From an uncultured Eubacteriales bacterium (lineage in GTDB: Bacteria > Bacillota > Clostridia > Christensenellales > Aristaeellaceae): a stretch of DNA of 47,522 bases. Positions 39,036 to 40,625 of this stretch are shown in pieces. Position 1 is the stretch's first letter; each line of letters begins with the position of its first letter. The notes beneath the pieces were generated by a model that did not search any database, was not told where the DNA came from, and worked only from the letters and a program-made list of their open reading frames with translations. Position numbers and translations under genes: made by a program. The DNA is taken from the NCBI GenBank assembly GCA_944349855.1, contig CALVNS010000022.1, positions 1-47,522 on the forward strand, given 5' to 3'.

Positions 39036-39935
39036 ATGAAAAAGACGATGATCAGATGGTGCTGCGCGGTCTTGTGCGCGGCGGTATGCTTCCAGGGCGC
39101 GCCCGCCCTGGCCGAGGAGGCGCCCTCTTCGGTCGCGGCCTATTGGGCGTTGGTGAGCGGCTCCCCCGTCGCCGCACAGACGAGCGAGCGGGCGGAATTC
39201 AAGCTGCTTGAGCAGGTCATGAACGGCGTATACAGCGACGGCAGTCTGGCCGATACGGCCCACGCGCAGGCGCTGGCCTCGGCCATGCCGCTGCTTGCGC
39301 AACTGCCGCAGGACGAAATCACGGCGTTCGCCAATGCCTATCAGATGGATGAGCAGGCGGTGCGTCACGCCTACTACCAGGCGCTGGCCAATGCCCTCAA
39401 GGCCGAAATCCATCTCAACCCCGCTTCCGAAGAGCGCTACCGCAATATCCAGATCCTGCTGGATCTGTTTCTCTCCGACGAGGACGGAGACGACGATGAC
39501 GCCGAGCGGGAAACCATTCGCGGGCTGATCACCCCGCAGCAGGTCAAAACCATCTCCGAGGATTACGGCCTTCCCTCCGGCTTTGTCACCCACATCGTCA
39601 TGGACGACGATTGGGACGATGACGACTGGGACGACGACGACGATTGGCGCGACGACGACCGCTACGACGACTGGGATGACGATTGGGACGACGATGACGA
39701 CGACGACCGGGACGACGACGACGACCGGGACGACGATGACGACGACGACGATGACGACGACGATGACGACGACGATTGGGACGACGACCGGGACGACGAT
39801 TGGGACGACGACCGGGACGACGATTGGGACGACGACCGGGACGACGACGATGACGATGATGATGACGACGATGACGATGATGATGACGACGATGACGACG
39901 ACGACGATGACGACGACGATGATGATGACGACTGA
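39036..39935 (+). CDS. Secreted protein with extreme aspartate-rich C-terminal tail
   Basis: A 299-residue exported protein. The signal peptide MKKTMIRWCCAVLCAAVCFQ ends near ALAEE. Residues about 30-188 form a small helical domain homologous to the protein encoded next (SAMPLLAQLP-x-DEI, NPASEERYRNIQILLDLFL, IRGLITPQQVKTISEDYGLP, FVTHIVMDD). Residues 190-299 contain only Asp, Trp, Arg and one Tyr: 94 D, 8 W, 7 R, 1 Y, ending in 31 consecutive Asp before the stop codon. DDDWDDDR recurs in tandem (period eight). ATG 39036 is the best start (AAAGGGG about ten bases upstream). Such a tail should bind Ca2+ or other cations or cationic peptides; function is unknown. It follows the sensor kinase gene by 99 bases. 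Confidence 0.9.
   Translation: MKKTMIRWCCAVLCAAVCFQGAPALAEEAPSSVAAYWALVSGSPVAAQTSERAEFKLLEQVMNGVYSDGSLADTAHAQALASAMPLLAQLPQDEITAFANAYQMDEQAVRHAYYQALANALKAEIHLNPASEERYRNIQILLDLFLSDEDGDDDDAERETIRGLITPQQVKTISEDYGLPSGFVTHIVMDDDWDDDDWDDDDDWRDDDRYDDWDDDWDDDDDDDRDDDDDRDDDDDDDDDDDDDDDDWDDDRDDDWDDDRDDDWDDDRDDDDDDDDDDDDDDDDDDDDDDDDDDDDDDD
39603..39932 (+). repeat. Asp-codon low-complexity tract (GAC/GAT) inside the secreted protein gene
   Basis: A 330-base run of GAC/GAT codons with rare TGG, CGG/CGC and one TAC. A 24-base unit (GAC GAC GAT TGG GAC GAC GAC CGG type) repeats about three times in tandem near 39773-39839. Such tracts are prone to slippage, so tail length may vary between strains. Confidence 0.9.
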
Positions 39936-39998
39936 TGGCGACCATTGACGGAGGAGGCGGGGCGCTGCTGCGCCCCGTCCTTTCCGCATGAAGGGCAC

Positions 39999-40625
39999 AT
40001 GAAAAGACGGCAAAGATACAGACGGCTGGCCCTGACGGTCCTAGTGCTGGCCCTGCTGGCGCGGGGTTCTCCCGCCCATGCGCAGGACGCGCAGATCGAC
40101 ACCTTTTTTATACAGGATTGGCTGGACGCCTGCCAGCAGTCCGGCTATCGCGCACAAAGCAGCGACGAAAAGCTGGTGGCCATGGCATTGGAGGGCAGCT
40201 TTCTGGGCCTGGACATGACGGACGCCATGAACCTGCAGGTGCTGGCGGCCGTACATCCGCTGCTCTCGGCAGTGCCTTCCGGCACGATTTCGCACGTGGC
40301 GGCGCAGGCAGGCGTAGAGGAAGGCATCGCATTCCATGCCTATCATGTATCCCTGTCGCAGACGTTGCGCGCAGAGGCGGCGTTGATGCCGGCCAGCGAT
40401 GAACACGTCGCCGATATGCGCGCGCTTCTGGCGCCCTTTCTGACGCCTGAAAACACCGAGGCCGACCTGCTGCGCGGGCTGCTCGCGCCCGGAATGACAT
40501 CTCAGGTTGCGCAGGCCCTCTCGCTTCCCGAGGAGTTCACCGCGTTTATCATGCTGGATGAGACGTGGTGGGATGGTTACTGGCAGGACGACGCCGGCTA
40601 TTACGCGTCGTCGCAGGGCGGCTGA
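39999..40625 (+). CDS. Secreted paralog of the Asp-rich protein, without the acidic tail
   Basis: A 208-residue exported protein with signal peptide MKRRQRYRRLALTVLVLALL and cleavage near AHAQD. Its body aligns with residues 30-190 of the preceding protein: HPLLSAVPSGTIS, RAEAALMPASDEHVADMRALL, LLRGLLAPGMTSQVAQALSLP and FTAFIMLDETWWD correspond to MPLLAQLPQDEIT, KAEIHLNPASEERYRNIQILL, IRGLITPQQVKTISEDYGLP and FVTHIVMDDDWDD. The Asp tail is replaced by GYWQDDAGYYASSQGG. ATG 39999 is preceded by AAGGG; a start at 39945 lacks a site. The two genes are 63 bases apart and probably arose by tandem duplication with tail gain or loss. Possibly a periplasm-equivalent or wall-associated protein; function unknown. 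Confidence 0.88.
   Translation: MKRRQRYRRLALTVLVLALLARGSPAHAQDAQIDTFFIQDWLDACQQSGYRAQSSDEKLVAMALEGSFLGLDMTDAMNLQVLAAVHPLLSAVPSGTISHVAAQAGVEEGIAFHAYHVSLSQTLRAEAALMPASDEHVADMRALLAPFLTPENTEADLLRGLLAPGMTSQVAQALSLPEEFTAFIMLDETWWDGYWQDDAGYYASSQGG

Follow-up and report, generated by a model that had tools for sequence, protein, structure and literature searches.

Organization of the Locus

The window analyzed here is a stretch of 47,522 nucleotides of contig CALVNS010000022.1 (assembly GCA_944349855.1) from an uncultured Eubacteriales bacterium of the gut (family Aristaeellaceae). In this study, we examined four of its genes, which lie on the + strand and encode, in order, a response regulator, a sensor histidine kinase, a long exported protein with a poly-Asp tail (FAM_L), and a short exported paralog (FAM_S). 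The features of this module are as follows.

36821..36849, +: promoter-like site TTGACA-17-TATCCT, 5' of the regulator gene, from a consensus scan
36904..37587, +: response regulator of the OmpR/PhoB type, with Response_reg and Trans_reg_C (Pfam); under every NCBIfam equivalog cut-off shown
37584..38936, +: sensor histidine kinase, overlapping the regulator gene, with HisKA and HATPase_c (Pfam)
~37662-38039: extracellular part of the kinase, modelled as a Cache/PAS-type sensor
39036..39935, +: FAM_L, 299 residues, helical domain and poly-Asp tail
39603..39647, +: start-of-tail motif DDDWDDDDWDDDDDW, common to relatives
39603..39932, +: tail of FAM_L, with 94 Asp, 8 Trp, 7 Arg, and 1 Tyr in imperfect tandem repeats
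39999..40625, +: FAM_S, 208 residues, without the poly-Asp tail

An earlier note on this DNA had described an exported protein of 299 residues with 94 Asp, 8 Trp, 7 Arg, and 1 Tyr among its last 110 residues, a tail-less homolog beside it, and two-component genes upstream. These counts are exact, and all of the last 31 residues are Asp, as the note had said. The Pfam profiles bear out the OmpR/PhoB-type regulator and the HisKA/HATPase kinase, and a sequence comparison gave 30% identity between FAM_S and FAM_L over 143 residues (E 2e-18), as for diverged paralogs. Both paralogs have signal-peptide-like starts; export of these proteins and of their relatives was judged by eye from the N-termini. 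A scan of the 99 bases that separate the kinase and FAM_L genes detected no terminator-like site, so it is plausible that the four genes are read as one transcript.

The Helical Domain and Its Spread

Neither FAM_L nor FAM_S reached the curated cut-off of a known family in Pfam, NCBIfam, and further family searches; the earlier note had named no family that combines this fold with an acidic tail. The domain also had no PDB sequence match, and neither protein matched PepSY, YycH, or YycI in Pfam at E values up to 1. Its predicted fold is helical, with a predicted local distance difference test (pLDDT) score of 84.6. No convincing match to this fold was found in the PDB, in a second-look alignment, or among viral models, and this absence is not proof of a new fold.

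Of 308 genomes from the bacterial family of the window, 24 were found to carry the domain (E <= 1e-8, with a larger alignment). A first pass at E <= 0.001 had given 46 of 300 genomes; most of the weak rows among them align just at the N-terminus of the model, in its signal-peptide part. For each genome, scoring was limited to the best candidates (at most 10 for the domain and 5 for the kinase), and extra copies may be missed. Partial samples at higher ranks gave 2 of 297 genomes of the order, both of the same bacterial family, and 1 of 391 genomes of the class, which is the window's own; kinase orthologs were found in 5 of 238 genomes of the order, all of the same family. Spread past the bacterial family was therefore rejected within these samples, and a plasmid home was likewise rejected, as tblastn found no match in a plasmid collection.

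The long proteins share a start-of-tail motif like MDDDWDDDDW.NDDDW. Beyond it they diverge, into poly-Asp, into PDTPDSP or PDYNSPAT repeats, or into a peptidoglycan-binding domain followed by such repeats. The peptidoglycan-binding domain was present in four of the seven long proteins scanned. Among ten aligned short proteins, eight have common Cys residues around C....GC.LLQM and NCL.AD (L040 5346-5891, L044 2784-3314, L045, L052, L053, L054, L056, and L059), which may possibly form a disulfide; the short proteins of the window and of genome G078 are without them.

Asp-Rich Tails beside One Kinase Lineage

A kinase ortholog was found in 31 of the 308 family genomes (E <= 1e-70). The helical domain accompanies it in 15 of them, PepSY-like proteins in 13, and neither in 3. 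In the 13 genomes, the kinase gene is followed by genes for one to three PepSY-like exported proteins that resemble those of genome G021. Pfam was run on the two G021 proteins, both of which are over the PepSY cut-off, and the others were assigned by similarity to these two. Twelve of these genomes encode one or more PepSY-like proteins whose final 40 residues include 16 or more Asp; in the thirteenth, G120, the PepSY-like frame leaves the contig inside an acidic stretch. In the kinase tree, the PepSY type forms one clade (100/100), and three changes of accessory type are needed.

We then counted Asp-rich gene ends, defined as open reading frames of at least 80 residues in which the last 40 include at least 16 Asp. 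Across 44 loci (505,535 bases), 29 of 29 such ends belonged to genes of the helical or the PepSY-like type. The tails strongly favor Asp over Glu on both domains, with Asp:Glu of 840:36 in 17 FAM_L tails and 861:30 in the PepSY-like tails (22 proteins scanned, 21 with a tail by the rule used). Because the same kinase adjoins either domain, and because all the Asp-rich ends are of these two types, the tail appears to track the kinase. What stays constant is not the helical domain: in 13 further genomes, this kinase precedes Asp-tailed PepSY-like proteins. The earlier note had read the protein as a stress-induced cation or cationic-peptide sink on the cell surface, perhaps for Ca2+, Mg2+, or antimicrobial peptides; a negatively charged surface protein is still the best reading. 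These results suggest that it is the tail, and not the folded domain, that goes with the kinase.

The Poly-Asp Tail of the Window Protein

The tail of FAM_L has a net charge of -87 and contains no Ser or Thr. In all six frames of the window, runs of at least five Asp (31, 16, 7, 5, and 5) lie only inside this tail. A sister genome of the same genus, G002 (G002:C37), has the same four genes in the same order. Its FAM_L domain is 99% identical to that of the window, and its tail is 39 residues shorter. Since G002 also carries the tail, the poly-Asp sequence is not an artifact of one assembly; the exact tail length in the two assemblies is less sure.

Such a tail might be a functionless by-product, arising when slippage expands GAY repeats at a C-terminus that tolerates them. 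The 39-residue difference between two proteins with nearly identical domains and the imperfect tandem repeats both speak for this explanation. However, the Asp codons are mixed (69 GAC and 25 GAT), so the tail is not one pure triplet run. Asp-rich ends also occur beside one kinase lineage on two domains that are unrelated, and no other gene in the 505 kb examined has one; tails built of PDTP or PDYNSPAT repeats retain Asp. We thus consider a by-product very unlikely.

Arrangement of the Module in Relatives

The recurring gene order in relatives is long FAM protein, CotH kinase, regulator, kinase, and short FAM protein. The complete module was found at five loci (L040, L053, L054, L056, and L059), and a partial module, mostly cut by a contig end, at six (L041, L042, L049, L103, L105, and L106); the frames of L058 are broken. 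The window, G002, and G078 have the order regulator, kinase, long, and short without CotH; G255 has long, regulator, kinase, and short, also without CotH; and in G064 the contig ends after regulator, kinase, and long. At L044 2784-5818 (G182), the long protein, CotH, and the short protein are encoded together without regulator and kinase, so the secreted part can stand apart from the sensor genes. Five genomes of one genus (G026, G171, G240, G258, and G269, at L004, L057, L047, L048, and L055) have a lone FAM gene whose product has a short, mixed acidic tail ending in a sequence like TDDDVERVLRQNG, and no two-component genes of the module kind were found beside it.

Tail Chemistry and CotH

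We compared the Ser plus Thr content of the FAM_L tails at loci with and without a module CotH gene. The values were 12.4-34.9% at 12 loci with the gene and 0-2.9% at 5 loci without it. A plain rank test gave p = 0.0009, a value that is too good because the loci share ancestry. The CotH state changes just twice on the kinase and FAM trees, and a paired test cannot reach significance with two changes. The table behind these values holds 18 loci. One of them, G101, was undecided and did not enter the test: its contig ends just after the tail, its Ser plus Thr fraction is 0.028, and the sole CotH of the assembly lies in a frame of 1050 residues. G302 was scored as having CotH, though the long protein and CotH sit at the ends of two contigs; the CotH of G179 is partial at a contig end; the long protein of G102 is split into two frames, of which the second piece alone was used; and the contig of G064 ends after the long protein. 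G293, with no long protein in its assembly, is outside the table.

CotH was confirmed by Pfam in six of six proteins tested, and the remainder were assigned by a profile of the module proteins. The intact module CotH proteins listed scored 564-838 bits with this profile, which was also applied to other CotH proteins at loci L089-L098 (those of G255 and G101 not among them). No CotH was found near the window genes. The sole match in the window's genome, G000:C7:49147-50130, scored 24 bits with the module profile and lies inside an open frame of 1072 residues, far from the module type; CotH-bearing frames of about 1000-1100 residues were seen in most of 25 genomes searched. The active site of module CotH was judged from invariant columns alone, which include two Asp 25 residues apart (L041), and no PDB sequence match was found to align with it. 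The catalytic residues reported for Bacillus subtilis CotH are Asp228 and Asp251 (PMC7821199).

In a history that fits these data, poly-Asp is the ancestral tail, CotH was gained once along with tails of the Ser/Thr-Pro-Asp kind, and it was lost once, in G255. The trees place the G255 kinase next to the G075 kinase within the CotH branch (99/98). With a long outgroup branch, this order is unsure. G101 may represent a second loss, though its contig ends at the junction. Genome G088 has an extra PepSY-like protein (L143 8244-9743) with a long Ser/Thr-Pro-rich tail (27.9% Ser plus Thr) and no CotH in the stretch examined; it is therefore a counter-example to a strict rule linking CotH to Ser/Thr. 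It is possible, although doubtful, that this two-component lineage keeps a surface polyanion constant and varies how it is built: as poly-Asp on PepSY-like proteins, as poly-Asp on the new helical domain, or as Ser/Thr-Pro-Asp repeats that a secreted CotH phosphorylates. Poly-Asp would then have returned at least once, where the CotH gene is missing.

CotH is reported to polyphosphorylate coat proteins in B. subtilis (PMC7821199). Twelve relatives likewise pair a CotH gene with a Ser/Thr-bearing repeat-tail protein (in G302, at matching contig ends). The repeats of CotB and CotG are Ser/Lys/Arg-rich, whereas the tails of the relatives are of the Ser/Thr-Pro-Asp kind, and the relatives' CotH and tail proteins begin like exported proteins. 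The proteins could instead form a spore-surface coat or crust layer, with CotH as the coat kinase in relatives. Besides the B. subtilis precedent, two Spo0A_C matches in the window's genome are in line with this, as is the sensor domain of sporulation kinase D among the top structural matches of the kinase sensor model; Cache folds, however, occur very widely in sensors. All parts of the module begin like exported proteins, whereas coat proteins, synthesized in the mother cell, have no signal peptides. No sporulation promoter or coat gene was seen nearby, in searches that were aimed at neither. A role in the spore surface therefore has little probability in our view.

Promoter Candidates and Other Features of the Window

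Two regulatory claims of the earlier note were not upheld. It had placed a candidate promoter at 38954-38988, where a consensus scan of 36780-40700 found none; the scan returned one site, 36821-36849, with 0.7 expected in shuffles, which is no evidence of function. It had also listed repeated GCATGC boxes. The window has 32 copies of GCATGC, where 43.5 would be expected (98 of 100 shuffles gave 32 or more), and the first of the two boxes 5' of the tail gene is altered in G002, so these boxes were rejected as a regulatory signal. Elsewhere in the window, a Lysine riboswitch (RF00168) lies at 11888-12065 on the - strand (92.8 bits).

Comparison with Known Systems

Two-component systems with secreted accessory proteins are an already known kind. 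DbfQ is described as a small secreted PepSY protein, encoded beside its two-component genes, that binds the sensory domain of its kinase, and the Dbf pathway as activated by envelope damage (PMC12714742). According to the same source, PepSY genes lie near two-component genes more than 60 times more often than expected, and BqsS of Pseudomonas aeruginosa has two adjoining PepSY proteins, just one of which is predicted to bind the kinase (PMC12714742). Systems of this type (DbfQRS of Vibrio and PA2658/PA2659-BqsRS of P. aeruginosa) resemble the window in that one or, in some species, two small exported proteins are encoded beside regulator and kinase, a layout that the PepSY-like relatives in G021 and other genomes match. 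In contrast, the window proteins are helical, lack a PepSY match, and include a poly-Asp tail, which the available text on Dbf does not mention. In Microbacterium, the UipRS genes lie 5' of the gene for UipA, a PepSY protein that has one negatively charged face and is reported to bind uranyl (PMC8963506), and LanP is reported to bind lanthanides (PMC11845868). In UipA, a single-pass membrane protein, the charge is described on folded PepSY domains, whereas the window protein has it on a low-complexity tail.

The sensor-domain fold nearest to that of the modelled kinase is the one of the WalRK system. WalRK with YycH and YycI also has the order regulator, kinase, and accessory genes, as in the module. 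However, the window kinase scored 156.6 bits against a WalK cut-off of 725, and the accessory proteins have no YycH/YycI match in Pfam, as noted above. Aspein, dentin phosphophoryn, and the calsequestrin tail are long Asp-rich or Asp/phospho-Ser sequences that bind Ca2+; these animal proteins are from another kingdom and have no homology with the window tail.

A further explanation is that the tail is a phosphate-free wall polyanion made under phosphate shortage by a PhoPR-like system, as teichuronic acid replaces teichoic acid in B. subtilis under phosphate shortage. The best NCBIfam scores of kinase and regulator were indeed to PnpS/PhoR and PhoB. In G075 (L138 5140-8968), a Na/Pi cotransporter that has PhoU domains takes the place of the tail proteins behind the kinase ortholog. 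The peptidoglycan-binding domain in long proteins also counts in its favor, as does the reported response of B. subtilis PhoR to wall teichoic acid metabolism (PMC6232261). However, the scores are far below the equivalog cut-offs (PnpS, 227.2 against 400; PhoB (TIGR02154), 206 against 296.2), a phosphate gene is nearby at just one of the 31 kinase loci, and the CotH branch would consume phosphate rather than spare it. We regard this explanation as unlikely.

A Proposed Mechanism

The reading that we prefer is an envelope two-component system with an exported accessory pair, at least one member of which has a polyanionic tail; we hold it tentatively, at somewhat below an even chance. As the FAM pair occupies the position of the PepSY pair, we infer by analogy that it may be an accessory pair modulating the kinase. 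The short protein would contact the Cache-type sensor domain and set kinase activity, in the way that DbfQ acts on DbfS. The long protein would be located in or on the wall, as the peptidoglycan-binding domain of some relatives suggests, and its tail may bind divalent cations or cationic peptides on the wall side. Changed occupancy of the tail, or changed contacts between the pair and the kinase, would alter the signal, and the regulator would adjust production of the pair. Secretion, kinase contact, binding, and regulation are all predicted here from sequence. In most relatives, the short protein is encoded directly 3' of the kinase.

Several observations weigh against this reading. In the window and G078, it is the long and not the short protein that directly follows the kinase. 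The precedents, DbfQ and UipA, are PepSY proteins, and the window proteins show no PepSY match. Three of the 31 kinase loci (G065, G075, and G070) are without either neighbor type; in G065, an exported-looking protein that has an acidic patch comes next, before the contig end. The 44 loci were chosen around the modules, and the count of Asp-rich ends covers these loci only. A full kinase ortholog is missing in 9 of the 24 genomes with the helical domain. Co-occurrence with two-component genes, which the earlier note had proposed to examine in other genomes, thus held in part: 15 of the 24 have the kinase ortholog and two more have kinase fragments, one of the nine is at a contig edge, and no two-component genes were found beside the FAM gene in six (G182, G026, G171, G240, G258, and G269).

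Significance

Among the literature matches listed (titles and starts of abstracts, with subscription journals mostly outside the scope), none described Asp-tailed exported proteins beside two-component genes. To the extent of the family and literature searches, three things are new: the helical family, the CotH variant, and the occurrence of Asp-rich tails on two domains that are unrelated but share a neighboring kinase lineage. The findings add an apparently uncatalogued helical family, and they broaden the recently described PepSY/two-component modules by accessory proteins that carry a different domain. They suggest that a sensor-kinase lineage is linked with the charge of exported tails and not with any single folded protein, and they offer a candidate extracellular substrate for the CotH-type kinases of gut Clostridia. 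A polyanion of varied build, if true, would make the module a bacterial analog of Fam20C-type secretory kinases with their acidic phosphoproteins. If the proposed mechanism is true, the module would allow tests of how bacteria perceive and adjust negative charge at their wall.
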